Of a stretch of 38,731 bases of DNA, positions 11,775 to 28,808 are shown piece after piece. The stretch comes from Pyramidobacter piscolens W5455. GTDB lineage: Bacteria; Synergistota; Synergistia; Synergistales; Dethiosulfovibrionaceae. The notes beneath the pieces were generated by a model. The model saw nothing but the letters and a program-made list of their open reading frames with translations. It was not told where the DNA came from and did not search any database. Both the position numbers and the translations under genes were made by a program. The stretch covers positions 1-38,731 of the forward strand of contig NZ_ADFP01000090.1 of assembly GCF_000177335.1 (NCBI RefSeq). The letters run 5' to 3'. Positions within the stretch are counted from its first letter, which is position 1. Every line of letters starts with the position of its first letter.

Positions 11775-11782
11775 TCAGAACC

Positions 11783-12120
11783 GGAGTGGTCCTGATAGTC
11801 GCTGCCGTGCAAACGGGAGAGGAAAGTCCGGGCTCCACAGGGCAAGACGCTGGATAACGTCCAGTTGGCGCGAGCCACAGGAAAGTGCAACAGAGAGCAG
11901 ACCGCCCGGTTCCCGTACCGGGTCAGGGTGAAAGGGTGGGGTAAGAGCCCACCGGGCGACAGGCGACTGTCGTGCCTGGCAAACCCCGTCTGGAGCAAGA
12001 TCGAATAGGGAGGGCCGAGGCTGCCCGCTGACCTCCGGGTACAGATCGCTTGAGACATGCAGCAATGCATGTTCTAGATAAATGACTATCCCAGACAGAA
12101 CCCGGCTTACGGGCCACTCC
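11783..12120 (+). ncRNA. rnpB: RNase P RNA (bacterial type A)
   Basis: The catalytic RNA that trims tRNA 5' leaders. The conserved core segments are plain: GAGGAAAGTCCGGGCTCC (11819-11836) near the 5' end, ACAGGAAAGTGCAACAGAGA further on (11876-11895), a GGGTAAGAG-type segment (11938-11948), and AGAACCCGGCTTACGGGCC close to the 3' end. The terminal helix P1 forms between GGAGTGGTCC (11783-11792) and GGGCCACTCC (12111-12120). At about 338 nt it is a normal size for the ancestral type. It is transcribed toward the division cluster from its own promoter, and terminators follow it. Confidence 0.97.
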
Positions 12121-12154
12121 GCCATCCCGTAAAAGCGTGAATGGTCAAGAAGTT

Positions 12155-12177: not shown

Positions 12178-12233
12178 GAATTATCTGGATTATTTTTGTA
12201 ATTAGTAATTCTAAGATTTAGATAATTTGCCAT

Positions 12234-12269
12234 GGATCTTCCCTATATTGGGGGAGATCCAATTTTTTT
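12234..12269 (+). terminator. Second terminator between rnpB and mraZ
   Basis: GGATCT-CCC (12234-12243) pairs with GGG-AGATCC (12250-12260), with one or two unpaired bases, followed by AA and seven T residues (12263-12269). It insulates the division operon from the highly expressed rnpB transcript. Confidence 0.75.
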
Positions 12270-12367
12270 GCTTTCGTTTTGTCATCCTTTTCTTTGTTGG
12301 GCGGATAGGTCGTCAACAAATATGTCGAGGGTTCATTTTGCTACGATTGAGAGGATCTTTCAGCTTA

Positions 12368-12396
12368 TTGACCCTCCTCAAAAAAAACGATATTCT
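12368..12396 (+). promoter_or_regulatory. Main promoter of the dcw division/cell-wall operon
   Basis: TTGACC (12368-12373) and TATTCT (12391-12396) are separated by 17 bp containing an A8 tract. The expected start is near 12403, inside the MraZ-type repeats and about 30 nt before the mraZ ATG. The 12270-12367 stretch before it is AT-rich and holds no gene that I can support. Confidence 0.8.
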
Positions 12397-12400
12397 GACC

Positions 12401-12429
12401 GTGGTGGAATAAAGTGGTAGAAAGTGGGG
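12401..12429 (+). promoter_or_regulatory. MraZ operator: three GTGG repeats at 10-bp spacing
   Basis: GTGG occurs at 12404-12407, 12414-12417 and 12424-12427, the last two as AAAGTGG, so the period is exactly 10 bp (one helical turn). MraZ proteins are known to bind tandem GTGG/TGGG-type boxes in front of their own gene. The repeats cover the predicted transcription start and the ribosome-binding region, so MraZ binding would repress the whole operon. Confidence 0.8.
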
Positions 12430-12433
12430 AAAA

Positions 12434-12871
12434 ATGGACATGTTCATGGGAAGCTACGACCATCGCATAGACAATAAGGGACGACTCGTCATGCCGGCGA
12501 AGTTCCGCGCCCAGATTGGGGACACCGTGGTCTGCACGGTGGGCCTCGATAATTGTCTTGCCGTCTACCCCATGGACGCATGGAGCGTATATCTGCAAAA
12601 GCTCCAGTCTCTGCCGTTCACAAAAGGACAGGCACGCCAGTTTATGCGCACGCTTCTCGGCGCGGCGGAGGAACTTCCCGTGGATGGACAGGGACGCATC
12701 CTGCTTTCTGTAAAGTTGCGCAAATATGCGCTGTTAAGCGACGCGGTCGTCGTCAATGGCGTCAATGATCATCTGGAAATCTGGAACAGCGAGAAATGGG
12801 CCGCCAGCAACGACGAAATGCTGGAGAATTTCACCTCCCTGGCCGAGGGGGTGTCGGACCTTGGAGTTTGA
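12434..12871 (+). CDS. mraZ: Transcriptional regulator MraZ
   Basis: First gene of the dcw cluster; a 145-residue DNA-binding protein with two SpoVT/AbrB-like swapped-hairpin repeats. The first covers about residues 5-50 (GSYDHRIDNKGRLVMPAKFR) and the second about 78-125 (PVDGQGRILLSVKLRKYA). Each carries the DxKGR/DxQGR basic loop used for DNA contact. MraZ forms rings that bind the tandem boxes in its own promoter, and matching repeats lie immediately upstream. GTGGGG in the last box doubles as the ribosome site. Its end overlaps the start of rsmH. Confidence 0.97.
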   Translation: MDMFMGSYDHRIDNKGRLVMPAKFRAQIGDTVVCTVGLDNCLAVYPMDAWSVYLQKLQSLPFTKGQARQFMRTLLGAAEELPVDGQGRILLSVKLRKYALLSDAVVVNGVNDHLEIWNSEKWAASNDEMLENFTSLAEGVSDLGV

Positions 12872-13802
12872 GCATGTCCCCGTGCTCCTGGCGAAAGTCG
12901 TCGAGAGCATGGACCTCAAAGCCGACGCGTTGATCGTTGACGGCACGTTGGGATTGGGCGGTTATTCGGAAGCGTTTTTAAAACGCTCCCCGCGGTGGAG
13001 AGTCGTCGGCATCGATCGTGATGAACGGGCGCGAAACATCGCCTGCCAGCGGCTGGCTCCTTTTGGGGAGCGTTTTCTGGCTCTCGACGGGGATTTTCGG
13101 AACATCGGAGGACTTTGCGCGTCCGTCGGGATTCGGGCGGTTGACTGTGTGGTGCTCGATCTGGGCGTGTCGAATATGCAGCTGGCCGACGGCCGACGCG
13201 GTTTTTCGTTCCGCGAGGACGGACCGCTGGATATGCGGATGAATCCCGCTGAGGGAACTCGATCGGCGTCGGAGTTGGTGAATGAACTTCCGCGAGAATC
13301 TCTGGCGGATATTTTTCGGAAATACGGCGAAGAGCGTTTTGCCTGGAGCATCGCCGGCGAGATCGTCAAAGAGCGGTTGAAAAGACCGATAACGAGCACG
13401 GCGGAACTGGTGGAAGTGATCCGCCGGGGGATTCCCGCTCCGGTAATGCGCAAGATGAACGGCCATCCGGCGCGAAAGGTGTTCCAGGCCTTGCGGGTCG
13501 CGGTGAACGACGAGCTGGGCGCGTTGGAACAGGGATTGGACGAAGCGTTTTCGCTCCTGGCAGAGGAGGGGCGGCTGCTTGTTGTAACGTACCATTCGCT
13601 GGAGGATCGTATCGTCAAGCGGCGCTTCAGAGAGTGGAACGAAGAAGGAAAAGGCGTTCTGGAGCCGCGCAAAGGGCAGGTTCCGGATGACGAGGAAGTG
13701 GAACGCAATCCAAAATCGCGCAGCGCGCGGCTTCGCGGCTTTCTCAAGAAAAACGTGCCGAACAAGGCGGAAGGGCGGATCGGACCATGGCGCAGGGTGT
13801 GA
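12861..13802 (+). CDS. rsmH: 16S rRNA (cytosine(1402)-N4)-methyltransferase
   Basis: Methylates N4 of C1402 in 16S rRNA in the small-subunit decoding centre, using SAM. The 313-residue product begins EFEHVPVLL, has the SAM-binding VDGTLGLGGYSEAFL at about 26-40, DLGVSNMQ (catalytic region), RGFSFREDGPLDMRM, and the C-terminal VTYHSLEDRIVKR of the family. The start is read as TTG at 12861, giving the typical family N-terminus, with GAGGGG 10 nt upstream; no ATG or GTG fits, and an upstream reading would run deep into mraZ. It overlaps mraZ by 11 bases and ftsL by 16. Confidence 0.95.
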   Translation: MEFEHVPVLLAKVVESMDLKADALIVDGTLGLGGYSEAFLKRSPRWRVVGIDRDERARNIACQRLAPFGERFLALDGDFRNIGGLCASVGIRAVDCVVLDLGVSNMQLADGRRGFSFREDGPLDMRMNPAEGTRSASELVNELPRESLADIFRKYGEERFAWSIAGEIVKERLKRPITSTAELVEVIRRGIPAPVMRKMNGHPARKVFQALRVAVNDELGALEQGLDEAFSLLAEEGRLLVVTYHSLEDRIVKRRFREWNEEGKGVLEPRKGQVPDDEEVERNPKSRSARLRGFLKKNVPNKAEGRIGPWRRV

Positions 13803-14152
13803 GATATTTGAGAAGAAATTCCGGGAAGTTTGGACAGGCGTTAGTGATGTTCTTCATCACTTCGATTATGTGTTTGGGGCTTCTGTCGATGCTGAGAAAC
13901 GATTCTCAGCGGATGGACGAGGCGATCTCTGCGGTTCAAGGACAGCTGGAGACGTGTGAGAAAGAATGCCGCGATCTGGAGCGCGAAGCGGCGGCCATGA
14001 TGTCGCCGCGCGCGATTCATGCCTATGCGGCCCATCAGCTCGGCATGACTCAGGTCCATCTGGCGGGCGCCGTCCGTCTGGATGTCGCAGGACGTTCCGG
14101 CGGCACGAGGGCTGCTTCTCTGATTGGTTCGGGAGTCGCGTTATCTCGTTAG
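13787..14152 (+). CDS. ftsL: FtsL-like cell-division protein
   Basis: A 121-residue bitopic membrane protein. A short basic cytoplasmic tail is followed by one membrane segment (about residues 18-36, ALVMFFITSIMCLGLL) and a periplasmic coiled coil (about 40-75). The short conserved SPRAIHAYAAHQLGM block is like that seen near the end of FtsL coiled coils. FtsL joins FtsQ and FtsB to activate the FtsW-FtsI synthase. Sequence conservation in this family is weak, so the call rests on topology and on its position between rsmH and ftsI. The start overlaps rsmH. Confidence 0.85.
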   Translation: MAQGVRYLRRNSGKFGQALVMFFITSIMCLGLLSMLRNDSQRMDEAISAVQGQLETCEKECRDLEREAAAMMSPRAIHAYAAHQLGMTQVHLAGAVRLDVAGRSGGTRAASLIGSGVALSR

Positions 14153-14195
14153 TGAAATGAAAAGTTGCTTTTGACGGAAACCGGGTGACGAGGAA

Positions 14196-15890
14196 ATGCC
14201 GGAATGGAGAACGGATGAGACGAAAAGAGAGCCGGGGCGCAGAAAAATCCAGTGGTGTCTCGTCTTTATCGTGATGGCCTGGTATCTGGGCGCGCTGGTG
14301 AAAGTCCATATATACCCGGACCGGCGGGCGGCCGAGCAGCTTGCCAAGCAGTACCAGCAGAGCGAACGCAAGGCGATGGACCGGGGCAGCATTTATGACG
14401 GCCGCGGCGAGCCGCTGGCTCTCTCCATTACGACGTACAGCGTGTTTCTCGATCCGGGGGTGGAGGGCTTTGAGCCTGGAAGTCTCGACAAGCTGACGCC
14501 TTATATCGGCAAGGCGAAAGTCCAGGCGCTGGACAAAAGATTAGACCGTCGCTTTTATTGGATCAAACGTTATCTTGAGCGCAGCGAAGCGGAAGAGATC
14601 GTAAAAAACTGCGGCAAAGGATTTTACATCAGAGAGGAACGCAAACGGATCTATCCGAAGGGGAATATGCTTTCCCACTTGCTGGGGTTCTGCGATCAGG
14701 ACGGCTGGGGACTTGCCGGCATCGAACTGATGTGGAACGGCACGCTGGTGGTGCCGGAAAAAATGCACACGAGTTATCGCGGCGCGCCGGCGGCCGTGGA
14801 CGTGACGCAGGAGTCGAAGCCCCGCAGCGGGAAGCAGGGGTTGTACCTGACCATCGATTCTGAGATCCAGTACGCAATAGAGCGTTTTCTTGGCGCTCAA
14901 GCCGCCGAGATCAAGGCTCCTTGGGCGGCGGGAATTTGTCTGGAAACGAGGACCGGCGCCGTCAAGGCCATGGCCAGCTATCCTGTTTTCGATTCGAACA
15001 ACCGCTCCACTTTCAAGGATCCGAAAGCTTTGAACAACAACGCCGTGAATCGGGTCTACGAACCGGGCTCGACCTTCAAACCCATTATGGTCGCCATGGC
15101 GCTTGAACAGGGAAGAGTGAAACAAGGCGATTCATTCCGTTGTCCCGCGCATCTGAAGGTGGCCGACGGTTATATCAGCGATTCCCATCCGAGGGACAAC
15201 GGCGTCATGAAGGTGGCGCAGATCATCGAAAAATCGTCGAACGTGGGCATGGCTCAGATCGGTATGAAAATGCCTCCTTTCAGTACGTATGAGGAAATGC
15301 GCTCTTGGGGAATCGGTTCCCGCACGGGCATCAAACTGAACGGTGAGGAAATGGGGCTGTTGCCGACAGCCGATAAATGGTACGGAATCACTCCCGCAAA
15401 CGTCGCCATCGGGCAAGGGTTCGCGGTAACGCCGCTTCAGCTCGTCACGGCTTTCAACGCTATCGTCAACGACGGCGTGCTCCTCCGTCCTTATTTGGTG
15501 CGTTCGGCCGTCGACGGCGAAGGGCATCAGGTGTATCACTCCGAGCCGATGGAGGTGAACCGCGTCGTTTCGCCGCGAAATTCCAAATGGCTTCGCGGCG
15601 TCCTGCGCCAGGTCGTGGTCAGCGGCACGGGCAAGCCGGCCGACAGCGAACTGGTCCACGTGGCCGGAAAAACCGGCACCGCCCAGGTCGCCCGGAACGG
15701 GAAGTATGTCAAAGGGCTTTACAATTCGTCAATGATCGGCTTCTGGCCCGCGAACGATCCCGAGTATACCATGTTGATCGTTTTCGGCGATGTGACGGGC
15801 AGTCTGTATTACGGAGGTCCCGTCGCCGGTTCGGTTTTTAAAAAAATCGTCGACGAAGTGGAACGTCTGAAGGGCGTCGGCGTCAAGTAA
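14196..15890 (+). CDS. ftsI: Septal peptidoglycan transpeptidase FtsI (class B PBP3)
   Basis: Cross-links septal peptidoglycan, paired with the FtsW glycosyltransferase. The 564-residue protein has an N-terminal membrane anchor (about 22-42), a dimerisation/pedestal domain starting at RGSIYDGRGEPLA, and a penicillin-binding transpeptidase domain. All three active-site motifs are present: STFK with nucleophile Ser292 and Lys295, SSN at 347-349, and KTG at 492-494. The start ATG follows GACGAGG at a normal distance; the 43-bp gap before it has no promoter that I trust. No C-terminal PASTA domain is present. Confidence 0.96.
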   Translation: MPEWRTDETKREPGRRKIQWCLVFIVMAWYLGALVKVHIYPDRRAAEQLAKQYQQSERKAMDRGSIYDGRGEPLALSITTYSVFLDPGVEGFEPGSLDKLTPYIGKAKVQALDKRLDRRFYWIKRYLERSEAEEIVKNCGKGFYIREERKRIYPKGNMLSHLLGFCDQDGWGLAGIELMWNGTLVVPEKMHTSYRGAPAAVDVTQESKPRSGKQGLYLTIDSEIQYAIERFLGAQAAEIKAPWAAGICLETRTGAVKAMASYPVFDSNNRSTFKDPKALNNNAVNRVYEPGSTFKPIMVAMALEQGRVKQGDSFRCPAHLKVADGYISDSHPRDNGVMKVAQIIEKSSNVGMAQIGMKMPPFSTYEEMRSWGIGSRTGIKLNGEEMGLLPTADKWYGITPANVAIGQGFAVTPLQLVTAFNAIVNDGVLLRPYLVRSAVDGEGHQVYHSEPMEVNRVVSPRNSKWLRGVLRQVVVSGTGKPADSELVHVAGKTGTAQVARNGKYVKGLYNSSMIGFWPANDPEYTMLIVFGDVTGSLYYGGPVAGSVFKKIVDEVERLKGVGVK

Positions 15891-15905
15891 GAGGAGTGCG
15901 TGACC

Positions 15906-17405
15906 ATGGATCGGCGATTGAAAAGAGGACTTGAAGATCTGAAAAATGCTGGGCTTCTGACAGATATCGGCGGTGACTGGAACAAAATACCGGCGGACTG
16001 CACCCTGAAAAGCGACTCCCGGACCGTCGGCCCGGGAGATATTTTTGCCTGCGTCGTGGGGCTTCACGCGGACGGGCATCGTTTCATCGAACAGGTGCTG
16101 AAAGCCGGCGTGTCGTATCTTCTGATTCAGCGCCCTGTTTCGGGACTGCCGATCCCTTGGATCCAGGTAACCGACGTCCGGGCGGCGATGGGGTATGTCG
16201 CTGCGGCTTTGAACGAAGAGCCGTCCGAGAAAATGAAAATGTTCGCCGTCACGGGGACGCAGGGCAAAAGCACCACCAGCTACATGGTGCGCAGCATCCT
16301 GCAAAACTGCGGCGTCAAATGCGGCCTGCTGGGAACGATCGTTTACGACGACGGTTCCAAGTCTGTGCTCGCCGACCGCACGACGCCCGAAGGCAGCGAA
16401 ATCCAGCAGTTTTTGAAGAATATGGTCGACAACGGCTGCCAAGCTTGTTCCATGGAATGTTCTTCGCACGGCATCGCGCAGGGGCGCCTGAGCGGGTGCC
16501 TTTACGACGGCGCCGTTTTCACCAATCTGACGCCCGAGCACCTCGACTTTCACGGGACGATGGAGAACTACTACGAAGCCAAAGCGGCGCTGTTCCGCAA
16601 ATATCTCAAACCGGGCGCGGCGGTGGCGCCGAACGCCGCCAGCGAGCACGGCCGCCGTCTTGCGGCCGAATTTCCGCAAGCCATGACCTGGGCGCTCGAG
16701 GCTCCGGCCCGCCTGCAGGGCGCGAACGTAAAGCTCGATATCGACGGAAGCGAGTTCGATCTGATCTTCGACGGGCGAAAGATGGGGCGCGTCCACATCC
16801 CGCTTTCGGGACGACACAATGTGGAAAACGCGCTTGGCGCGGCGGCCGTCTGTTTAGCCGAAGGCTGCGACGAAAAAAAAGTCGTTGCCGGTCTGGCGCT
16901 CATGCCTCAGGTGCCGGGGCGCATGGAACGGCTGAATCTCGACAACGGCGTGCGCGTCGTCATCGATTACGCGCACACGGCGGATTCACTGAAAGCGTTG
17001 TTGGAAACGCTGCGCCCATTGACCGAAGGACGGCTCGTCAGCCTCTTCGGGCACGGCGGCGACCGTTTCGCCGGGCATCGTTCCCTGCTTGGGCGGGCGG
17101 CGGCGCAGAAAGCCGATCGGATCTTTGTCACCATGGACAACCCGCGCACGGAAGATCCCCTGAAAATCGCCGAACAGATCGTGGCGGGCATCGAGGAAGT
17201 CCGCGCCGACGGTTGCTGGTCCATTGAACTTCCCCGTGACGCGGCGATCTGCAAGGCTCTGGACTGGTGCCGCCGCGGCGATCTGCTGGTGCTTTCCGGC
17301 AAGGGTCCGGAACCGTATCTGGAAATCAACGGCGTCAAATATCCTTACAGCGACCGCGCGGTCGTCGAGAAATGGGCCGAAGAAAGGGGCGTGACGATCC
17401 GGTGA
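15906..17405 (+). CDS. murE: UDP-MurNAc-L-Ala-D-Glu:meso-diaminopimelate ligase
   Basis: Adds the third amino acid to the peptidoglycan stem peptide in the cytoplasm. The 499-residue product has the Mur ligase layout: an N-terminal UDP-binding domain (SDSRTVGPGDIF), the ATP loop GTQGKSTTS at 117-125, the YYEAKAALF segment containing the lysine that is carbamylated, and VIDYAHTADSL. The DNPR motif at 411-414, followed by TED, matches the diaminopimelate-selecting signature rather than the lysine type, which supports a Gram-negative style wall. ATG 15906 is preferred over GTG 15900 because GAGGAG is then 9 nt rather than 3 nt away. Confidence 0.95.
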   Translation: MDRRLKRGLEDLKNAGLLTDIGGDWNKIPADCTLKSDSRTVGPGDIFACVVGLHADGHRFIEQVLKAGVSYLLIQRPVSGLPIPWIQVTDVRAAMGYVAAALNEEPSEKMKMFAVTGTQGKSTTSYMVRSILQNCGVKCGLLGTIVYDDGSKSVLADRTTPEGSEIQQFLKNMVDNGCQACSMECSSHGIAQGRLSGCLYDGAVFTNLTPEHLDFHGTMENYYEAKAALFRKYLKPGAAVAPNAASEHGRRLAAEFPQAMTWALEAPARLQGANVKLDIDGSEFDLIFDGRKMGRVHIPLSGRHNVENALGAAAVCLAEGCDEKKVVAGLALMPQVPGRMERLNLDNGVRVVIDYAHTADSLKALLETLRPLTEGRLVSLFGHGGDRFAGHRSLLGRAAAQKADRIFVTMDNPRTEDPLKIAEQIVAGIEEVRADGCWSIELPRDAAICKALDWCRRGDLLVLSGKGPEPYLEINGVKYPYSDRAVVEKWAEERGVTIR

Positions 17406-18778
17406 CGGTGAGACTGAGTCAATTGGCGTTGCAGGCCGGCGTCGTTGTAAAAGGGGTCGATCGGGAGCTGCCTCTGACCGTTCGGGTGGACAGCCGCGAA
17501 ACGCAAAAAGGCGAGGGGTTTGTGGCGCTTCGCGGCACCAAAGTCGACGGGCACCGCTTCATTCCCGACGTGCTCGCGAAGGGGGGCGCGCTGATCGTCT
17601 GCGAAGCGGCGGCCTATCGAGAGGAATGGAGCTCGCTGTATCCCCAATGCGCTTTTATCCTGACGCCGGAACGCTGTGAATACGGTCTTGCGTCCCTGGC
17701 GTCGGTTTATCTGAAGTCGCTGGAGCGTCTGCGCGAAACCGTCGCCATTACGGGCAGCGTCGGCAAAACTTCGGCGAAAAACGACACGAAAGCTCTTTTG
17801 GAAGGTTATTTCAAAATCCACGCGGCCGCAGGCAACTATAATACGCTCATCGGCTGCGCGGTGACGGTGCTGGCGGCGCCGGCAGACACGGAGGTCGTGC
17901 TGCTGGAAATGGGCGCCAACCATCGCGGGGAAATCGCCGAGATGACGCGTTATCTGCCGCCGACGATCGCCGCAGTCACCGAGGTCGCGCCGGCGCATCT
18001 GGAAAATTTCGGTTCCCTCGAAGGCGTGCTTCAGGCCAAAACGGAAATTTTTGCGTCGGAAAATCTGCGCTGCGCCGTGATCAACGGCGACAACGGAATG
18101 CTCTGCAAACGCGCCGAAGAACTGAGACTGCCGGAAGTGATCCGTTTCGGACGCCGCGGCGAGGTTCTTTTTGCCAGAGAACATCTAAGTTGGGAAAAAG
18201 ATCATTTTACGGTGAGGGCGATTTTGACAGGGCTGGACGGTTTGTCATTCAACCTTTCTTTGCCGTTGGCCGGCGTGCATCAGCTCTATCCGCTCTGCTG
18301 CGCCGTCGCCATCGCGGGGCGTCTGGGGCTTTCCAGCCGCGAGATCGCGGCGTCTTTGCCCAAGTGCCGCAACAGCGCCGGACGCGGAGAGATCCGCCTG
18401 TCCGAAAGCGGCGCAGCGATTCTCGACGAGTGTTACAATGCCAGCCCGGCGGCCGTGAAAGCGTCTCTGGCTGCCATGGACTCGGCCGACATCCCCGGGC
18501 GCCGCTTTTTGATCCTCGGCGAAATGTTGGAGCTGGGAACGGCGTCGGTTTCGGAACACGGCAAGATCTTTGAGCGGGCGCTTCGCGTCAGTGACCTGCT
18601 GTATCTCTTTGGCGAGGAATGGAAGAACGTCGATGGGACGGCGGATTATTATTACGACTCCATCGATGCGCTGATCGAGGCGGTGGATGGAACGCGCCCG
18701 GGCGAAGGCGACGTGATTCTCGTCAAGGGATCGCGCGGCAATCATCTTGAGCGCGTGGTGAGGGCGCTTGAACTATGA
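17402..18778 (+). CDS. murF: UDP-MurNAc-tripeptide:D-alanyl-D-alanine ligase
   Basis: Adds D-Ala-D-Ala to complete the cytoplasmic pentapeptide precursor. The 458-residue product has the N-terminal VDSRETQKGEGFVALRG motif of MurF/MurE uridine binding, the ATP loop GSVGKTSAK at 118-126, an NYNTLIG segment typical of MurF, LLEMGANHRGEI, and DECYNASPAAVKA near residue 345. The start is taken as GTG 17402, which overlaps the murE stop as GTGA and implies coupled translation; GTG 17408 is an alternative. The stop overlaps the mraY start. Confidence 0.95.
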   Translation: MTVRLSQLALQAGVVVKGVDRELPLTVRVDSRETQKGEGFVALRGTKVDGHRFIPDVLAKGGALIVCEAAAYREEWSSLYPQCAFILTPERCEYGLASLASVYLKSLERLRETVAITGSVGKTSAKNDTKALLEGYFKIHAAAGNYNTLIGCAVTVLAAPADTEVVLLEMGANHRGEIAEMTRYLPPTIAAVTEVAPAHLENFGSLEGVLQAKTEIFASENLRCAVINGDNGMLCKRAEELRLPEVIRFGRRGEVLFAREHLSWEKDHFTVRAILTGLDGLSFNLSLPLAGVHQLYPLCCAVAIAGRLGLSSREIAASLPKCRNSAGRGEIRLSESGAAILDECYNASPAAVKASLAAMDSADIPGRRFLILGEMLELGTASVSEHGKIFERALRVSDLLYLFGEEWKNVDGTADYYYDSIDALIEAVDGTRPGEGDVILVKGSRGNHLERVVRALEL

Positions 18779-19743
18779 TGACTCTTCTGGCTCCTCATTC
18801 GCTGATCCTTCTTTTCGTGATTTTCTTCTGTGAGGTTGCCGCGCAGCATTCGTGGATCGACTGGATGCGGCGCCGTCACGTGTCTCAGGTGCAGAAGGCT
18901 TATGGAACGCATATCGACGAGAAGATCAAGGCGAAAGTTCCTGCGGCGGGCGGCGTGGTATTTTTGCTGATCGGTTCAGGGCTTTTGCTGACTCACATGA
19001 TTCGGGGCGATCGCGCCGGCGTGATCTTCTGGTCGTATCCGATCCTTTCCGCTATGGTCGGCTTATGCGACGACATGTTGAAGTTCAAAAACAGTTCCAG
19101 CGAGGGGCTGCGCAGCCTGCAAAAGTTCGCTCTGCAGGCGACGACGACGGGGCTGTGGTTCATCCTTCTGGCATTGGACGGCAAAGTTCCCGCTCTATTC
19201 TGGGGCTTTTCGATCGGCGGCTGGATCTGGCCTCTGGCGCTGTTTTTCGCCGTGGGCATTCAGAATTCGGTGAACGTGACCGACGGTCTGGACGGTCTGG
19301 CGGCGGGGGCAAGCGTCGTGACCTTCGTCGTTTTGGCGTCGCTCTCGCCGGAACCTTACCTGGGATCTCTGACGGGATTGGCCGTCGCTTTGGGATTTCT
19401 ATGGCATAACTGTCATCCCGCTCAGGTCTTCATGGGCGACGCGGGAGCGCATTTTTTGGCCGGGCTGATGGCTTCCTGCGCTTTTATGGGCGCCGGCGGC
19501 GTGTTGGTCTTGATCCCCGCGGGAACGGGATTCGGCATTGAGATGCTGTCGGTCGTGATCCAGCTGATCGCCATTCATGGTTGGGGCCGGCGCGTTTTTA
19601 GAATGAGCCCCCTTCACCATCATTTTCAACTGTTGGGCTGGCCCGAAGACCGCATCGTCGTCCGTTTTTTGCTGGCCCATACGCTTTGTTCGCTGCTGTG
19701 CGCCGCGGCGGCGCAGTCCGTGGCGTTCTTTTTTATGCCGTGA
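18775..19743 (+). CDS. mraY: Phospho-N-acetylmuramoyl-pentapeptide transferase
   Basis: Transfers phospho-MurNAc-pentapeptide to undecaprenyl phosphate at the inner membrane, making lipid I. The 322-residue, about ten-helix protein shows the family blocks in order: KVPAAGGVVF, CDDMLKFKN (Mg-binding Asp pair), NVTDGLDGLAAG, FMGDAGAHFLAG and PLHHHFQLLGW (His-rich loop). It is shorter than E. coli MraY (about 360) mainly at the N-terminus. Its ATG overlaps the murF stop. It is followed by the largest gap inside the cluster, 72 bp without a recognisable signal. Confidence 0.96.
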   Translation: MMTLLAPHSLILLFVIFFCEVAAQHSWIDWMRRRHVSQVQKAYGTHIDEKIKAKVPAAGGVVFLLIGSGLLLTHMIRGDRAGVIFWSYPILSAMVGLCDDMLKFKNSSSEGLRSLQKFALQATTTGLWFILLALDGKVPALFWGFSIGGWIWPLALFFAVGIQNSVNVTDGLDGLAAGASVVTFVVLASLSPEPYLGSLTGLAVALGFLWHNCHPAQVFMGDAGAHFLAGLMASCAFMGAGGVLVLIPAGTGFGIEMLSVVIQLIAIHGWGRRVFRMSPLHHHFQLLGWPEDRIVVRFLLAHTLCSLLCAAAAQSVAFFFMP

Positions 19744-19815
19744 TCGATTTTCGTTGAGCGCGACGTCGCTACCGTGCGTTTGGTCTTTTCGGGCGCGGCG
19801 GAAGGAGGAGTTTAG

Positions 19816-21126
19816 ATGGTTCATAAGATCACCGTCGTCGGCGCCGGCGTGAGCGGAAGGGCTCTGGCGCTCTGGGCGGCCAGCCGCGGCGCCGGTGTTT
19901 TCGTGACCGATCATCGGGCGGAGATCCCCCGCGAGACGCAGGAGCTTTTCAGCAAGACGCGGATCCAATGGGAAACCGGCGGCCATACGCCCAGATGTTG
20001 CGAGTGCGACCTGATGGTTGTGAGCTCGGGCGTGTCGGAAAAATCGGATGCGGTGTCGATGGCCCGCGCAAAAAACGTGCCTGTGCAGGGAGAGCTCGAC
20101 CTTCTCGCCCCGTTCCTGAAAGGAAAGATCATCGCCGTGACGGGAACGAACGGCAAAACGACCTGCACGGCGCTGATCGCTCATCTGCTGCGGAACGCCG
20201 GGCTGAACGCCGTTTCGGCGGGGAACATCGGCAATCCCCTGGCGGCCCATGCGGACAGAAGCTATGACGCAATCGTGATGGAGCTGAGCAGTTTTCAGCT
20301 GCACTGGAACACGCAGCTCAGACCGGACGTTGCCGTTCTGACGAACCTGGCCCCCGACCATCTTGATTGGCACGGCAGTTATGAGAACTACAAGAACGAC
20401 AAGTGCAAGATCTTTCTGCCCCGCCAGGAAGAATGCTACGCGGTGACGCATGACGTCGACGCGTTCCGAGTCCCGGCGGGACGCGCCGTTTGTGCGCTGG
20501 GGCGCGGCAATCTGAGGATCGACATGGACGGCCGCGATGTGTTTCTCGTCGGTCACGGGAGACGCCGCCTGTTGTTCCATAAAAGCTCGTTGAAACTGCT
20601 CGGCTCCCATAATTTGGAAAATGCGGCCATGTCTTGCGCAGCCGTGGCGCTTGCGTTTCGCGATGTCGATCCCTCCGCGGGACTTGCCGGTTTTGAAGCC
20701 CTCCATCATCGTTGTGAGCCGGTGGGCGAACAGAACGGCGTCCTTTTTATCGACGATTCCAAAGGAACCAACGTCGCCGCCGTGATCGCGGCTTTGCACA
20801 GCATAAACGGGCGCAAGCTGATTATCCTTGGCGGTCAGGGTAAGGGCGAAAGCTATGATGAACTTGCCCGCGTCGTTTGCGAAGAGACGTTCGCCGCGAT
20901 TGTGATCGGTTCCGAAGCCGAAAAAATTCTCGCGGCGCTGCGGGTTGCCGGTTACGGACATGCCGTGCGGGCGAAGGACATGGCCGAAGCCGTAAAAAAA
21001 GCTTCGGAACTTGCCGCTCCCGGCGACAAAGTCCTTCTTTCTCCGGCCTGCACAAGCTGGGACATGTATCATAGTTATGAAGAACGGGGAGATCATTTTG
21101 CCCAACTCGTCAGAGCGTTATTCTAA
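19816..21126 (+). CDS. murD: UDP-N-acetylmuramoyl-L-alanine:D-glutamate ligase
   Basis: Adds D-Glu to UDP-MurNAc-L-Ala. The 436-residue protein starts with a Rossmann-like uridine-binding fold (VVGAGVSGRALA), has the ATP loop GTNGKTT at 110-116, ELSSFQLHW (a MurD signature), LTNLAPDHLDWHGSYENY with the following lysine-rich DKCKIF, and ends with SPACTSWDMY, the usual C-terminal MurD block. The start follows GGAAGGAGGAG at a suitable distance. It overlaps the ftsW start. Confidence 0.96.
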   Translation: MVHKITVVGAGVSGRALALWAASRGAGVFVTDHRAEIPRETQELFSKTRIQWETGGHTPRCCECDLMVVSSGVSEKSDAVSMARAKNVPVQGELDLLAPFLKGKIIAVTGTNGKTTCTALIAHLLRNAGLNAVSAGNIGNPLAAHADRSYDAIVMELSSFQLHWNTQLRPDVAVLTNLAPDHLDWHGSYENYKNDKCKIFLPRQEECYAVTHDVDAFRVPAGRAVCALGRGNLRIDMDGRDVFLVGHGRRRLLFHKSSLKLLGSHNLENAAMSCAAVALAFRDVDPSAGLAGFEALHHRCEPVGEQNGVLFIDDSKGTNVAAVIAALHSINGRKLIILGGQGKGESYDELARVVCEETFAAIVIGSEAEKILAALRVAGYGHAVRAKDMAEAVKKASELAAPGDKVLLSPACTSWDMYHSYEERGDHFAQLVRALF

Positions 21127-22207
21127 CCAGATAAAGGTCTCGCGGTGTTATAACCGCGATTCCGGCAGCGGAAGCGTTTTTGGACTTTGGATTGTGCCCT
21201 TGATCCTTTCCACGTTAGGCGTCGTCGTGGTCTCGTCGATGACGGGCTGGGATCTTTCTTCGCCGGGATTGAAGCAGGCGCTGTGGCTCGTGGTAGCTTT
21301 GTCGGGATTTATCGTGGTGACTCAGGTGCCGCTGAGTTTTTGGTCGAGGCACAGCATTTTTTTGCTGGCTGTGGCCTTTGGTCTGCTGGCGATGACGGTC
21401 TTTTCCCCGTTGAGAGTTGTCGTCAAGGGAGCTTCCCGGTGGATCCGTCTTGGTCCAGTCAACTTCCAGCCGTTGGAAGTCGTGAGCTTTGTGATGATGA
21501 TTCATCTCGCCAAAGTCTATATGCGGGTGGACAGCATGTGGAAAGCGCTGATCCTCAGCGGCATCCTGTTTGCTCCCTTTGCCCTGATCATCATGAAACA
21601 ACCTGACTTTGGCGGCCTGCTGCTGCTCGTGGGCATTATGGGCGCGCTTTTCATCGAACGATACGGCATCCTGTTGCCGCTGGTCACGGGGATTGCCGCG
21701 TCTCCGGTGCTATGGTACATGGCGAATTATGGATATCGCGCCGAACGGATCGAAACATGGCTCGATCCCTGGACCGATCCGTTGGGTTCCGGTTATCAGG
21801 TCATTCAGGGACTGATCGCTTTTGCCAATGGGCGAATATGGGGCATCGGTCTGGGCCGGGGGCAGCAATTTTTACCGGAAGTACACAACGATTTTATTTT
21901 CCCCGCTCTTGGAGAACAGCTGGGACTTGTCGGCACGATGAGCGTTTTTCTTCTGTTTGTGTTTTGGACGCTGCGCGTCTATGCCGCATACAGAAAAGCG
22001 ACGCCGGAACGGCGTATTCTCATTTGGGGATGCTGCGTCGCGGTACTGCTGCCGTTTTTCATCAACCTCGGCGGCGTCATGAAACTGATTCCCCTGACGG
22101 GCATGCCTCTGCCGTTTATCAGTTACGGAGGCACCTCGCTGGTATTCATGTGGGCAAGGATCGGCTTGCTGATCAGGCTGATCAAAGAACCGATAGAAGA
22201 CGAGTAG
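21098..22207 (+). CDS. ftsW: Septal peptidoglycan glycosyltransferase FtsW (SEDS family)
   Basis: Polymerises lipid II at the division septum together with FtsI. The product has about ten membrane helices and the SEDS signatures KGASRWIRLGPVNFQPLE, KQPDFGGLLLL, GSGYQVIQGLIAFANG, the HNDFIFPALGEQLG loop and LPFISYGGTS near the end. The start is uncertain. TTG 21098 has GGGGAG 6 nt upstream and gives 369 residues; ATG 21077, seven codons earlier, has no Shine-Dalgarno. Either start lies inside the end of murD, so translation is coupled. Confidence 0.94.
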   Translation: MPNSSERYSNQIKVSRCYNRDSGSGSVFGLWIVPLILSTLGVVVVSSMTGWDLSSPGLKQALWLVVALSGFIVVTQVPLSFWSRHSIFLLAVAFGLLAMTVFSPLRVVVKGASRWIRLGPVNFQPLEVVSFVMMIHLAKVYMRVDSMWKALILSGILFAPFALIIMKQPDFGGLLLLVGIMGALFIERYGILLPLVTGIAASPVLWYMANYGYRAERIETWLDPWTDPLGSGYQVIQGLIAFANGRIWGIGLGRGQQFLPEVHNDFIFPALGEQLGLVGTMSVFLLFVFWTLRVYAAYRKATPERRILIWGCCVAVLLPFFINLGGVMKLIPLTGMPLPFISYGGTSLVFMWARIGLLIRLIKEPIEDE

Positions 22208-22221
22208 AGGAGGACGGTGAC

Positions 22222-23259
22222 GTGGCGTACAGAATCCTGCTGGCTGCCGGGGGAACCGGCGGTCATATCATCCCGTCCGTCGCTTTCGGCTTGTGGTTGC
22301 AAAAGCAGGGTGAATCGGTCATTTGGCTCTCGGGCAGCCGTCCGCTGGAAGACGAAATTTATAAGGCTCATGGCATAGCTCCTCAAAAATTGTCGCTGGA
22401 AGGCTCGCCTTTGGGCGTGCCCGGTCTGCGTTCGCTGAAGCGCTGGAAACATCTTTTCGGTTCTTTTTTCGAAGCATGCGCGATTTTAAAGAGAGAACGG
22501 ATCGACCATTGCGTCCTGTTTGGCGGTTATCTTTCGATGCCCGTTTTGCTGGCGGCGCGGTGCCTTCACGTTCCCGCGCTTATACATGAACAGAACACAG
22601 TCGCAGGGAAAGTCACCCGTTTTGCAGCCAGGTGCGGCATTCCTGTCGCCTGCGCTTGGGAAGAGTGTCAGGGGCTGGATACAATAAAAAAAACTGTGAC
22701 GGGTATGCCGTTGCGCGAGATCCGGCTGATCGATAAAAAAGACGCTCAGAAACGGCTGTTGGGGGCGTCTCTGAGCGACAATGAAAAACTGATTGTTATT
22801 TTAGGCGGCTCTTTGGGCAGCGGCGGCATGAAAAAAGTGCTGCAAGATGCACAAAATATGATAAAATCAACGAGTTATAAAGTCCTATGCATGGGGATCG
22901 AACCCAAGGATCGTCCTTTTCCGGAAGCGTTGACTCACGAAGCCTGCTGGGATATGACGGCGGTATTTTCCGCGGCGGATGTGATCGTCTGCCGAGCTGG
23001 AGCTTCGACACTGGCAGAGCTTCGGGCCCTGGGAATTCCAGCGCTCGTCGTGCCGTGGCTAAAAGCCGCTGGACAGCACCAGGTGAGCAACGCCCAGTAT
23101 TTCTCCAAATTGACGGGAGCCCCCGTCTTCTTGGAAGGTTCTTCACAGGAGCAGTTCCGCGCGGCCTTGCAGTCTGTCGCAGAGCGGCGCATGAGCTGTG
23201 AGAATTTGAATGCAGGCGCAGTAAACCTTTACGAAGCCTTGCGCAGCCTCACAGTTTGA
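22222..23259 (+). CDS. murG: UDP-GlcNAc:lipid I N-acetylglucosaminyltransferase
   Basis: Adds GlcNAc to lipid I to make lipid II on the inner face of the membrane. The 345-residue GT28 enzyme has the glycine-rich AAGGTGGHIIPSVA at the N-terminus, an HEQNTVAGKVTRF block (about 115-127), GGSLGS at the start of the second Rossmann domain, and the donor-binding CRAGASTLAEL segment followed by AAGQHQVSNA. The GTG start is set by GAGGAGG 8 nt upstream and gives the expected N-terminus. Confidence 0.95.
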   Translation: MAYRILLAAGGTGGHIIPSVAFGLWLQKQGESVIWLSGSRPLEDEIYKAHGIAPQKLSLEGSPLGVPGLRSLKRWKHLFGSFFEACAILKRERIDHCVLFGGYLSMPVLLAARCLHVPALIHEQNTVAGKVTRFAARCGIPVACAWEECQGLDTIKKTVTGMPLREIRLIDKKDAQKRLLGASLSDNEKLIVILGGSLGSGGMKKVLQDAQNMIKSTSYKVLCMGIEPKDRPFPEALTHEACWDMTAVFSAADVIVCRAGASTLAELRALGIPALVVPWLKAAGQHQVSNAQYFSKLTGAPVFLEGSSQEQFRAALQSVAERRMSCENLNAGAVNLYEALRSLTV

Positions 23260-23273
23260 AAGGGGAATCCCAA

Positions 23274-24704
23274 GTGGGTCGAAAAAAAATAGATCTGGGC
23301 AGTATCAAAAACATTCACCTTATGGGTGTTGGCGGAGCGGGAATGAGCGGGCTGGCGCTGCTTTTCCGCGAATTGGGATTCAACGTCAGCGGTTGCGATA
23401 TGGGACGCACTGCTTACGTCGAAAAGCTGGAGAAAGCCGGCGTAAAGATTCTTTACGGACATGACGTGCACCATTTGGATGCGTGCGCAGTTGATTTGCT
23501 GGCGTACAGCAGCGCGATTCCCGCGTCCAATCCCGAGCTGGCCGAGGCGCGCAGAAAAGAAATCCCTGTGCTGCAGCGAGCCGAGCTGCTGAGCCTTCTT
23601 TTCGACTCCAAAAACGGCATCGGCGTGGCGGGAACACATGGTAAGACGACGACGACTTCGCTGATCAGCTATATCCTTGAGCAGGCCGACATGCAGCCCA
23701 CCATCGCGGTGGGCGGAGAGCTTTGTGACATTGGCTGCAATGCCAAGCTCGGCATGGGGGAGTACATGGTCGCCGAACTTGACGAAAGTGACGAGTCTTT
23801 TGAGTATTTTCATCCCCTTTACTCTGTCGTGACGAACGTCGATTGGGATCACGTGAATCAATATCCCGATCTTCAGGCCGTCATCGATGCTTTCGGCCGT
23901 TTTCTTCGCAACACCAAGGAAGGCGGTAAACTCTTCCTGTGCGGAGAGGATGCCGGAGTTAAAAAGGTGATCGAAGCGCTTCCGAACGATTTGAAGAATC
24001 GCATGTATCTTTTCGGGCGCGATCCTTCGTTCGATTTTTACGCTGCCGACATCCAGTATCACTGCGGCGGTGGTTTGAACTACACTTTCTATGCGAAAGG
24101 CCGGAAGATGGGGACCATCGAGCTGGTGATTTCCGGCGAACATAATGTCCTCGATTCTCTGGCGGCATGTGGCGTCGCTCATGAACTGGGAGTTTCCTTC
24201 GACATCGTTCAGAAGGCCATGAGAATGTTTCATGGGGCCAAGCGGCGTCTTCAGCTGCGTGCCATGTGTCCGGACAATATCCTGGTATACGACGACTATG
24301 GGCACCATCCCCGCGAGATTGAGGCAACGCTGAACGCGGTCCGGCTTATGTACCCCGACCGGCGAATCCTGTTGATATTTCAGCCTCATCGCTACACGCG
24401 GACCCAGGCTCTTTTCGATCGTTTTGCAGAAGTGTTGGCCAGCGTGCCCCAGGTCGTGCTGCTGCCGATCTATGCGGCGGACGAGCAACCGATTCCCGGC
24501 GTATCGTCCGAACTGATCGGCGCCACAGTGGCAAAGCTTGGCGGCAGTTGCGTCCTCGCGCAGAATAAAGTTGAAGCCGCTGGAAGGGCCCTGTCGCTGG
24601 TTCGTCCCGGTGACTTGATTCTGACCGAAGGAGCAGGCGATGTATGTGTGATTGGCGATCTGGTCGTTCAGGAGTTGAACAGGAGTTTTGCGTCGGCTCT
24701 TTGA
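23274..24704 (+). CDS. murC: UDP-N-acetylmuramate:L-alanine ligase
   Basis: Attaches L-Ala to UDP-MurNAc, the first stem-peptide step. The 476-residue protein begins with IHLMGVGGAGMSGLA, the murC dinucleotide-like fold, has the ATP loop GTHGKTTTT at 120-128, ELDESDESF, NVDWDHVNQY and DDYGHHPREI, the last a strong MurC signature. GTG 23274 is preferred, with AAAGGGG 8 nt upstream; TTG 23256 is in frame but lies within the murG stop region with no separate ribosome site. No murB or ddl follows it, unlike in many dcw clusters. Confidence 0.95.
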   Translation: MGRKKIDLGSIKNIHLMGVGGAGMSGLALLFRELGFNVSGCDMGRTAYVEKLEKAGVKILYGHDVHHLDACAVDLLAYSSAIPASNPELAEARRKEIPVLQRAELLSLLFDSKNGIGVAGTHGKTTTTSLISYILEQADMQPTIAVGGELCDIGCNAKLGMGEYMVAELDESDESFEYFHPLYSVVTNVDWDHVNQYPDLQAVIDAFGRFLRNTKEGGKLFLCGEDAGVKKVIEALPNDLKNRMYLFGRDPSFDFYAADIQYHCGGGLNYTFYAKGRKMGTIELVISGEHNVLDSLAACGVAHELGVSFDIVQKAMRMFHGAKRRLQLRAMCPDNILVYDDYGHHPREIEATLNAVRLMYPDRRILLIFQPHRYTRTQALFDRFAEVLASVPQVVLLPIYAADEQPIPGVSSELIGATVAKLGGSCVLAQNKVEAAGRALSLVRPGDLILTEGAGDVCVIGDLVVQELNRSFASAL

Positions 24705-24730
24705 CATTTTGATTTTTATGGGGGCGGGCA

Positions 24731-25492
24731 ATGCGGAAAAGATTACGGTGGTGCATATATTCTTTTTTAGCGGGATCTTTTCTGTGCCTGAACGATCGTT
24801 TTCAACCCTTTCGCCTGAAGTCGTTGCAGGTTGAAAATTTTTCGGCCGAGTTCGAGACGAATCTGCGCGATTGGAGCGAGTCATTCCTGAATTTCCATCC
24901 AGCATGGCTTTTGGCGAAAAGCGAACTTAAAAGCTATGAACGGCAATATCCCTTTACGATAGAAACGCAATGGAACCCTTTTCGTGGCGCACTGAAACTG
25001 ACCGCGGTCCCCTTTGTTCCGGCCATGAGAATCGTCTGGCAGCATGCCGAGTATCTTATTGCGCAGGACGGTGCGGCATGGCGCCGCGATCTGTGGGACA
25101 AGGTGCTGACTGCGGAAATTCCGCAGCTCCCTGAACTTCGGGTGGGGAATTCGTTTCCTTTGCTTGAGGATCTGGGGCTCAACGGAGTTACTCGTTTGAC
25201 GGTTTCGTATCAATGGCTTTATTCACTGCAGCAAACTCTGCTTTCCCAGAAGGACCTGAAAGTTTCCGATGTGGAACTGCTCCGCCGCGGCGGAGAAGAT
25301 GTGGTTGCCTGTGTTTTTGAAAACGTCGGGACAAAAAGCCAGTCGTCTTTTATTGGAAAAGTGTCTCATCTTGAAAAAAGTCTCATCGTCGTGAGAGAAT
25401 TGACTGGCGCGAAACCGGAACAAAAAACGTCGATCGATGCGACGTACGAGGATAAAATAATTATCAAGAAAAACAGCGTCATCCCTGAATAA
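24731..25492 (+). CDS. Divergent FtsQ/DivIB-like cell-division protein
   Basis: A 253-residue protein in the position always held by ftsQ, between murC and ftsA. A basic N-terminus leads into a membrane segment (about residues 6-21, RWCIYSFLAGSFLCL). Then comes a region compatible with a POTRA domain: LKSLQVENF, helices, and IVWQHAEYLIAQDGAAW, which resembles the A.W..Y.L.D..G.. strand after POTRA. A beta-rich second domain follows (NGVTRLTVSYQWL..). Overall similarity to textbook FtsQ is low, so the name rests on topology and context. Its expected role is to scaffold FtsL/FtsB and hold the FtsWI synthase in check. Its base composition looks more AT-rich than that of flanking genes. Confidence 0.7.
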   Translation: MRKRLRWCIYSFLAGSFLCLNDRFQPFRLKSLQVENFSAEFETNLRDWSESFLNFHPAWLLAKSELKSYERQYPFTIETQWNPFRGALKLTAVPFVPAMRIVWQHAEYLIAQDGAAWRRDLWDKVLTAEIPQLPELRVGNSFPLLEDLGLNGVTRLTVSYQWLYSLQQTLLSQKDLKVSDVELLRRGGEDVVACVFENVGTKSQSSFIGKVSHLEKSLIVVRELTGAKPEQKTSIDATYEDKIIIKKNSVIPE

Positions 25493-25519
25493 TGTTTGAG
25501 GGTAAAGGAGAGAGGATTT

Positions 25520-26836
25520 ATGGGCAGAGATTCTGACATCCTGGTGGGACTTGATCTCGGCACGAAGAAAATAGCCGTGGCAGTTGCCGAACGAGCGCCG
25601 GAAAACCCCGATAAAGCGCAGATCATAGGCATAGGACAGGCGCCTTCCCGAGGTCTGCGCAAAGGTATGATCGTCAATCTCGATCAGGCGGTCAGTTCGG
25701 TCTCCGACGCTATCGCCGATGCCGAATCTATGCTCAGCGGTATAAAGATCAGCCGTGCTGTGGTCGCTTTCAGCGGTATCGACGTAAAATGCCACGTACT
25801 GAAGGGAAAGATTTCCCTGGGACGTTCGCCGCGCCAGATCATGGCTGAAGACATCGAGCGGGTCATCGAGACGGCACTGAGTGAGCTTCAGCTGCCGCCG
25901 AGCAGTTGCTGCCTTCATTCAATTCCGATTAAATATGCTATCGACGGCAACAGCGGGATCGACAATCCTTTGGAGATGACGGGCATCCGTCTGGAGGTCG
26001 AACTGACGGCGCTCGTAATCCCTACTACCGTGGCGCAAAATGTGGTAAACTGTGTGGAAAAAGCGGGAGTCTCTGTGGTTGGTCTTGTTCTCAAACCTGT
26101 CGCCGAGGCTTTGGGAACGCTGAGCGCCGACGAGCGGGCGATGGGCGCCTCCCTTGTGGCGATCGGCGGTGGAACGACGAGCGTGTCGATCTTTTCCGAA
26201 GGACATATGGTTCACGCCGCGGAAATTCCTGTTGGCGGCGATCATATTACCAACGATATTTCCTGCGTCATGAAAATTCCTTTTGCGATCGCGGAAGAGC
26301 TAAAAAAAGATATTGACGTGGACCCGAAGGCGGAAACGACGGAAACGGATGGAACGCTGACGGTGGAACACCGCGGCCGAAAGCGTGAACTGGGCAAGGA
26401 AGAAGTGGGGGAGATCATGGCAAGCCGTCTGGACGAGCTTTTTGCCGACAGCATCGTTCCCAGTCTCAAAGCGATCCAAAAGGCGGGGCTCCCCACTGAT
26501 GTGATTCTGACGGGCGGCGTCATGATGACTCAAGGCATCGTTCCGTTTGCCGATTCTTACTTGGGAACATCCGTGCGAGTCGGCGTGCCCGTGCTTCAGG
26601 AGGAGATGCAGCGAGGACGCAATGACTGTCGTTACAGTGCCGTATCGGGGATTATCGTGTATCTGATGGAAAGGAGAAAGAATCCCTTTGCATACGTGGA
26701 AGCGCCTATGTCGATTTTCAAAAACATTGCCACCGGCAAATCTTCTAAGAGAATGAAAGGTGCAAGAAGACCTTCTCAGTCGCCCCTTAAATCCTTTGCC
26801 CGCAATGCGAGAGAACTTTTCAGAGAATTATTCTAA
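25520..26836 (+). CDS. ftsA: Cell-division protein FtsA
   Basis: An actin-like ATPase that tethers FtsZ filaments to the membrane. The 438-residue product opens with ILVGLDLGTKKIAV (phosphate-1 motif), has SHS2-like domain 1C with AFSGIDVKCHVLKG, an IGGGTTSVSIF phosphate-2 block and LTGGVMMTQGI adenosine block. It ends in an amphipathic helix (KSFARNARELFRELF) that is the expected membrane-targeting sequence. The start follows AAAGGAGAGAGG; an in-frame ATG 24 bases earlier would precede this site. It is followed after 14 bp by ftsZ. Confidence 0.96.
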   Translation: MGRDSDILVGLDLGTKKIAVAVAERAPENPDKAQIIGIGQAPSRGLRKGMIVNLDQAVSSVSDAIADAESMLSGIKISRAVVAFSGIDVKCHVLKGKISLGRSPRQIMAEDIERVIETALSELQLPPSSCCLHSIPIKYAIDGNSGIDNPLEMTGIRLEVELTALVIPTTVAQNVVNCVEKAGVSVVGLVLKPVAEALGTLSADERAMGASLVAIGGGTTSVSIFSEGHMVHAAEIPVGGDHITNDISCVMKIPFAIAEELKKDIDVDPKAETTETDGTLTVEHRGRKRELGKEEVGEIMASRLDELFADSIVPSLKAIQKAGLPTDVILTGGVMMTQGIVPFADSYLGTSVRVGVPVLQEEMQRGRNDCRYSAVSGIIVYLMERRKNPFAYVEAPMSIFKNIATGKSSKRMKGARRPSQSPLKSFARNARELFRELF

Positions 26837-26850
26837 GGAGGACCGGTTCC

Positions 26851-28023
26851 ATGGACGACAGCGAGATCTTCTCGATCACCAACGATGCACCCCTTGAGGA
26901 TGGCGATATCGGCGCGTTAGTTCCGCGAGAAGTCATCAAGGTTATAGGTGTCGGCGGCGCCGGCGGCAACGCACTGAATACGATCATTCGCAGCGGCATT
27001 GATGATGTGGATTTTATTGCCGGCAACACCGACGTCGCGGCGCTGCGGCTTTCGGAGGCTTCGTCGAAATTGATCCTGGGGCGCAATCTGACCAAGGGAC
27101 GGGGCGCCGGCGCGAATCCCAGCGTTGGGCAGGAAGCGGCTCAGGAATCTGAAGAGGAAATCTCACAGCTTCTTGAAGGGGCCGACATGGTCTTCATCAC
27201 TGCCGGCATGGGCGGCGGCACCGGTACGGGGGCAGCTCCCGTGATCGCCGGCATTGCCAAGGAAAAAGTCGGCGCGCTGGTCGTCGCGATCGTGACCTAT
27301 CCTTTCAGCTGGGAGGGACCGAGGCGTATTCAGCAGGCGACTGAAGGCATCGGCAGACTGCGAGAGAAAGTCGACGCGCTGGTCATCGTGCACAACGACC
27401 GTATCATCGAACTTTCCGATAAATCGACGACGTGGCAGGAGGCCTTCAAGATGAGCGATGAAGTCCTTCGGCAGGCCGTCGCCGGAGTGACGGGCGTGAT
27501 TCGCAAGATCATGCAGGTCAACGTGGATTTCGCGGACGTGTGCACGATCATGCGCAACGCCGGGACCGCCATCATGGGCGTCGGCGAAGCCAAGGGCGAT
27601 GGCCGTGTGCTCGCGGCGGCCCGCGCGGCGATGAATGGGCCGCTGATGACGGCGCCGATGAACGGAGCTTCTTCTGTATTGTACTGCATCGAGTCCGGCG
27701 AGGACTTGAGCATTCTCGAGATGAACGAAGCGGCGAAGTTGATCTCCGCTTCTGCCCGCGAGGACGCGAACATCATCTGGGGGCAGGGCATCGATCCCTC
27801 CATGGGCGATACCGTGCGCTTTACCTTGATCGCTACGGGATTCAAGGACGTTCTTGCCGACAAGAACGACGCCAAGGCGCGGGCCGGGGCGGATTCCGCC
27901 GGCTTGTTCGAAAAACAGAACCTGACGCCCAGCGACGTAGTTTCGGAAGAGCCTCACAGTATTTTTGAAGGGCTTGGCTCTGGACTTGATATCCCGACGA
28001 CTTATAGACGCCGCAAAAAGTAA
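26851..28023 (+). CDS. ftsZ: Cell-division GTPase FtsZ
   Basis: The tubulin-like GTPase that forms the Z-ring. The 390-residue protein has the N-terminal [15 protein letters not shown], the tubulin signature [10 protein letters not shown] at 121-130, [11 protein letters not shown] with the T7-loop residues near residue 230, and a conserved C-terminal peptide [13 protein letters not shown] that binds FtsA and other partners. The variable linker before it is short, about 30 residues. It is the last gene of the dcw run and is followed by a terminator. Confidence 0.98.
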
Positions 28024-28037
28024 CGAGGATTTTCGGA

Positions 28038-28069
28038 CGGGGACAAGTCTGCTTGTCCCCGTTGTTGTT
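28038..28069 (+). terminator. Terminator of the dcw operon
   Basis: CGGGGACAAG (28038-28047) pairs perfectly with CTTGTCCCCG (28052-28061) around a 4-nt loop, followed by a T-rich run broken by G (TTGTTGTT). The interrupted T-run suggests that termination is not complete. Confidence 0.8.
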
Positions 28070-28081: not shown

Positions 28082-28104
28082 TTTACGAGACAGAGGTGAT
28101 TTTT

Positions 28105-28797: not shown

Positions 28798-28808
28798 GCG
28801 GCAAGACC

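Follow-up and report, generated by a model that had tools for sequence, protein, structure and literature searches.

A three-box repeat array directly ahead of mraZ in Pyramidobacter piscolens W5455 is very probably an autoregulatory, and probably repressive, operator of MraZ that lies over the predicted transcription start site and the ribosome-binding site; binding of the protein is deduced from the sequence. The repeats are almost certainly the known MraZ docking site, and the finding is therefore real but ordinary. It places an MraZ operator in the Synergistota, a phylum in which the repeats are conserved together with their phase and their overlap with the ribosome site. No study of an MraZ operator in Synergistota was found in the literature searched, which was mostly open-access. 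The features of the window, the whole 38,731-nucleotide stretch of DNA that was analysed, are listed in Table 1.

Table 1. Positions of genes and regulatory features around the array ahead of mraZ
Feature	Position	Strand	Details
RNase P RNA (rnpB), upstream gene	11782-12125	+	Rfam RF00010, 301.6 bits, model 1-367/367
Terminator-like hairpin 3' of rnpB	12233-12261	+	13-pair stem then T run; separates rnpB from mraZ promoter
Predicted -35	12368-12373	+	TTGACC, 5/6 match, 17-nt spacer
Predicted -10	12391-12396	+	TATTCT; in the slot of the first MraZ box of most Synergistota
MraZ box 1	12401-12407	+	GTGGTGG, GTGG core at 12404
MraZ box 2	12411-12417	+	AAAGTGG; identical in 6/6 genus members
MraZ box 3	12421-12427	+	AAAGTGG; overlaps Shine-Dalgarno region
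Bases predicted to pair with 16S rRNA 3' end	12418-12430	+	TAGAAAGTGGGGA, -11.5 kcal/mol
Possible fourth in-phase box	12431-12437	+	AAAATGG; contains ATG 12434-12436 (first possible start codon)
mraZ	12434-12871	+	TIGR00242, 2x PF02381
rsmH (mraW) ORF	12756-13802	+	TIGR00006, 275 bits, from ORF residue 38; true start inside, near mraZ end
ftsL-like gene	13787-14152	+	TIGR02209, E 9.4e-05, below cut-off
ftsI-type penicillin-binding protein	14196-15890	+	best NCBIfam model spoVD_pbp, 329.9 bits, below cut-off
murE	15900-17405	+	NF001126 and TIGR01085 above cut-off
murF ORF	17267-18778	+	TIGR01143 above cut-off; true start inside
mraY	18775-19743	+	TIGR00445, 161.3 bits, below cut-off 192.05
murD	19816-21126	+	TIGR01087 above cut-off
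ftsW ORF	21011-22207	+	TIGR02614, 254.1 bits, below cut-off; true start inside
murG ORF	21712-23259	+	TIGR01133, 184.1 bits, below cut-off; true start inside
murC	23256-24704	+	TIGR01082 above cut-off
Gene at ftsQ position	24731-25492	+	named by position only; no NCBIfam match
ftsA	25496-26836	+	TIGR01174 above cut-off
ftsZ, last cluster gene	26851-28023	+	TIGR00065 above cut-off
Terminator-like hairpin 3' of ftsZ	28036-28063	+	12-pair stem

The repeat array and its conservation

Positions 12401-12430 read GTGGTGGAATAAAGTGGTAGAAAGTGGGGA. The GTGG cores start at 12404, 12414 and 12424 with a spacing of exactly 10 bp, which bears out the perfect phasing claimed in the first-pass annotation; an extra GTGG at 12401 is out of phase with the other three. 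Boxes 2 and 3 are exact AAAGTGK units, and box 1 has only the core, the AAA half of the consensus being missing. The annotation had compared the two AAAGTGG boxes to those of Mollicutes, and both motif and spacing indeed equal the published MraZ site of that group, given as (AAAGTGKN3)3 in the available text of PMC5282649. Over the 21 positions of this consensus, 12401-12427 has three mismatches and 12411-12437 only one, because the in-phase AAAATGG at 12431-12437 counts there as a unit. The earlier count of three copies is thus exact for GTGG and a slight undercount by motif. In all, the array combines GTG-core direct repeats every 10 bp, at least three boxes, the AAAGTGK-N3 unit and a position directly upstream of a mraZ gene that heads its cluster.

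The pattern GTGG-N6-GTGG-N6-GTGG has a single match in the window, compared with 0.02 expected, and a single match on both strands of the genome (2.56 Mb, 140 contigs), which is the site before mraZ. Dinucleotide shuffling of the 100-bp upstream region, repeated 20,000 times, never produced three in-phase GTGG, whether the period was fixed at 10 or allowed to vary between 5 and 21. A repeat finder applied to 12340-12460 did not report the boxes at the settings used.

The protein encoded downstream is MraZ, as shown by a TIGR00242 score of 136.2 bits (cut-off 98.35) and two PF02381 domains, and it is 98% identical to that of Pyramidobacter sp. C12-8. Its AlphaFold2 model (pLDDT 93.3) has the MraZ fold, with Z 23.2, rmsd 1.0 and 137 aligned residues to 1n0e, and the closest chains are the MraZ proteins of M. 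pneumoniae and M. genitalium. Residues D11, K13, R15, D82, G85 and R86 are invariant in 22/22 aligned MraZ proteins.

Conservation was assessed in 61 genomes, the P. piscolens genome and 60 relatives, of which 49 encode MraZ, in 24 of 25 genera. The first-pass annotation had named loss of phase in close relatives as a result that would speak against its reading; the phase is kept, and three in-phase boxes are present in all six members of the genus. At least three in-phase RTGK cores occur at 45 of the 49 Synergistota loci (24 genera), related sequences that are not independent samples, and at 39 of the 40 loci taken from other phyla; at the remaining four Synergistota loci the strict in-phase count stays below three. 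Chain scoring that admits weak boxes gives at least three boxes, and up to five, at 49/49 loci, and the strict core counts are preferred here. The 40 loci from other phyla are those left from 44 after omission of three Pyramidobacter loci (L052-L054) and a fragment without upstream sequence (L095). GTGG pairs 10 bp apart number 61 in the 48 distinct Synergistota upstream regions, against 0.35 by shuffling, and pairs 20 bp apart number 42 against 0.45. The corresponding numbers for the 40 regions from other phyla are 90 and 54, with 0.5 by shuffling in each case. The consensus built from one sequence for each of the 23 other genera consists of four consecutive AAAGTGG-type units, the last merging into GGGAGG, and the sequence before mraZ in E. 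coli K-12, CAGTGGGAAATTGTGGGGCAAAGTGGG, is an array of like kind.

The array accompanies mraZ. MraZ is absent from 12 of the 61 genomes, and a three-box site at rsmH was found in none of the 12. Eight of them, six of which belong to one genus, are informative in that rsmH scores above cut-off, and the 200 bp before rsmH hold at most two in-phase GTG in these eight. The strict three-box site (at most three mismatches) is present at mraZ in 35 of the 49 genomes with the gene and in 0/8 without it (Fisher p 0.0002, relatedness ignored). The same pattern was found outside mraZ genes at four places in the 61 genomes (in G006, G020, G032 and G044), compared with six for the reversed control. Sites elsewhere are thus no commoner than in the control and give no evidence of a wider MraZ regulon. 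A 10-bp tandem repeat, AAAGTGCAGA (C8:18992-19018), in G032, a genome without MraZ, is probably unrelated. The sole other AAAGTG-N4-AAAGTG site in the P. piscolens genome lies inside a 481-aa ORF (C124:31510). In one relative (G060), a second MraZ match (C19:5-115) is truncated where the contig ends and is preceded by its own array (C19:128-174), which may reflect duplication or contamination.

The association with mraZ also bears on the possibility that the G-rich repeats form a quadruplex, at the DNA or the mRNA level, and thereby lower expression independently of MraZ, as has been claimed for the mraZ promoter of S. aureus. According to the available text of PMC11796246, a G-quadruplex motif lies downstream of that promoter, conserved motifs of this type precede mraZ in other bacteria, and destabilising the S. 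aureus motif raised a reporter in E. coli; in P. piscolens, 12401-12430 contains four G runs, each two to four bases long. However, a quadruplex needs neither the 10-bp phase nor the A-rich half nor the T in GTGG, yet it is the phase and the TGG core that are best conserved in the array, which is moreover absent before rsmH in 8/8 informative genomes without mraZ. Because the E. coli reporter strain should carry a MraZ of its own, the reporter result could fit an MraZ box equally well. In a term search of the main text of PMC11796246, neither 'MraZ box' nor 'repressor' was found. The quadruplex explanation is thus considered very improbable. The S. aureus quadruplex may itself coincide with MraZ boxes, going by the portion of PMC11796246 that was available, and published quadruplex effects before mraZ would be worth checking as MraZ boxes.

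Promoter, ribosome site and start codon

The predicted promoter has nine of 12 consensus matches, and about one such site per 1.5 kb is expected by chance. A -35 of the form TTGACC/G with a 17-nt spacer is found in 6/6 genus members. Transcription would start near 12403 if the predicted promoter is used. The boxes are placed behind the predicted -10 and over the predicted start site, the promoter prediction being conserved in the genus. The proposal in the first-pass annotation that the array covers both the start site and the ribosome site thus holds for the ribosome site, and its start-site part depends on the predicted promoter.

The predicted pairing region for the 3' end of 16S rRNA overlaps the last box in 6/6 genus members, and does so by at least two bases at 43/49 loci, in agreement with the earlier suggestion that the last box is also the Shine-Dalgarno sequence of mraZ. 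The anti-Shine-Dalgarno sequence was taken from another member of the genus (G005), the sole one of the six genomes with a match, because a search for the 16S 3' end in the P. piscolens genome gave no match. The overlap is a constraint of shared space, in so far as the modelled base pairing is correct, and the present data give no indication that MraZ acts on translation. The predicted pairing of the last box would also suit a mere purine-rich leader with an extended Shine-Dalgarno sequence and a chance likeness to MraZ boxes. Nevertheless, ribosome binding can use one box only, and the 10-bp period reaches 20-30 bp further upstream and is common to distant phyla. The shuffling and core-count results likewise contradict a chance leader, which leaves this explanation with next to no probability.

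The mraZ gene has two candidate start codons six bases apart, at 12434 and 12440. Start codons were assigned by alignment throughout; at three of the 40 loci from other phyla (L066, L086 and L094), this assignment falls on a codon that does not usually serve as a start. The codon aligned with 12440 is the start in most relatives, and 12434 is therefore possibly not the real start; judged from this alignment, mraZ may begin at ATG 12440. In that case, AAAATGG falls in the leader. The position of AAAATGG is in phase in only three of the six genus members; G001 and G002 have it one base out of register, and G003 has no ATG there. A conserved fourth box at the start codon is not supported for this reason, and the repeat in P. 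piscolens may be of chance origin.

Box number and promoter arrangement in Synergistota

Box slots were numbered backwards from the box closest to the start codon (slot 0). All six Pyramidobacter genomes have GTG in slots 0, -1 and -2, and none has it in slot -3; their -10 hexamer lies in slot -3 or begins up to two bases earlier. GTG is present in slot -3 at 30 of the other 43 Synergistota loci. An extended -10 element, TGNTANNGTG, lies within the first box at 28 of the 49 loci (13 genera, Pyramidobacter not among them), and it is in phase with the array in 28/28, compared with a shuffle rate of 0.019 per locus. The same element was found in the first box at 0/40 loci from other phyla. At the 28 fused loci the match to a -35 at 16-18 nt averages 2.25 against a background of 2.46, and none reaches 4/6. 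TTGAC occurs within the upstream 100 bp at 12 of the 21 non-fused loci and is absent at nine, so the split between the arrangements is not clean. A sigma-70 scan with free placement over the relatives gave scattered -10 positions, many of them inside boxes, and placement at the conserved position was used instead.

Two architectures appear to be present in these sequences: in one, a box and an extended -10 are fused; in the other, the -35 and -10 are separate from the boxes, which lie behind them. A tentative and somewhat doubtful extension is that in Synergistota the first box supplies the bases of the extended -10 (TGNTANNGTG), for which MraZ and the polymerase would compete. Pyramidobacter would have the unfused form, with a -35 and -10 and without a box at the position of the -10; some of its species would have gained a fourth box that contains a start codon. 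Box number and promoter type would then form a trade-off that sets the self-limitation of the division genes. What may be new in this analysis is confined to the fusion of promoter and box across Synergistota and the lack of it in Pyramidobacter; neither was found in the literature searched, which was mostly open-access. The fusion offers a simple, testable idea of how self-limitation of the division genes could become stronger or weaker.

Proposed regulation of the cluster and comparison with known systems

The first-pass annotation had a cluster of 15.6 kb begin at this site, which fits the complete division and cell-wall gene cluster that runs from mraZ to ftsZ (12434-28023), with intergenic gaps of at most 72 nt and a terminator-like hairpin behind it. 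By analogy with B. cenocepacia, in which a single mRNA from mraZ to ftsZ was measured (PMC7761207, available text), the cluster is probably read as one transcript. The gene directly 3' of ftsZ (28096-28797) matches FtsN weakly (E 7.7e-07, below cut-off) and has a promoter-like site ahead of it at 28053-28081. The genes rapZ, yvcK and whiA are consecutive at 28584-31707, an order known from Gram-positive bacteria.

Solved relatives suggest that MraZ forms a ring-shaped oligomer, which would put several DNA-binding folds on consecutive GTG boxes; owing to their 10-bp spacing, these boxes all face the same way on the helix. Bound MraZ would cover a span that begins immediately downstream of the -10, takes in the start site and reaches the ribosome-binding region, and it is proposed that RNA polymerase would therefore be unable to start or to leave. 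MraZ would in this way limit its own mRNA and, via the common transcript, the genes down to ftsZ. The repression, and its strength, are suggested by the position of the boxes and by other species.

MraZ could instead bind the array and activate, or merely buffer, the cluster. An activator role has been described for a mycoplasma MraZ, as cited in the available text of PMC7761207, and the site alone therefore does not fix the sign of regulation. However, boxes behind the predicted -10 and over the predicted start site are in the usual blocking position, and cluster expression rises upon loss of mraZ in M. genitalium, with mraW, MG_223 and ftsZ transcripts up (PMC8475190, available text). Activation or buffering is thus regarded as unlikely, and repression is the preferred reading.

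The array resembles several known MraZ sites. Eraso et al. reportedly described the E. coli MraZ operator before mraZ in 2014. As in E. coli, three GTGG-type boxes 10 bp apart lie between the promoter and mraZ, but the E. coli boxes are GTGGG and the last of them is about 20 bp before the start codon. Compared with the Mollicutes site (PMC5282649, available text), the 10-bp repeat is alike and boxes 2 and 3 are exact, whereas box 1 of Pyramidobacter lacks the AAA. The protein has the same fold as M. genitalium MraZ in two cryo-EM structures, 9sz7 (titled 'in complex with 4 box promoter', Z 20.9) and 9r4j (titled 'in complex with its promoter', Z 19.5). The two proteins share 28% identity, and 9sz7 has four boxes, whereas Pyramidobacter has three, or four if AAAATGG counts. 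According to the available text of PMC7761207, the repeats of the B. cenocepacia dcw promoter follow the -10 box and extend across the start site. Pyramidobacter likewise has seven-base repeats with 3-base spacers behind a -10, which is a predicted one, but B. cenocepacia differs in having four repeats and a start site 100 bp upstream of mraZ.
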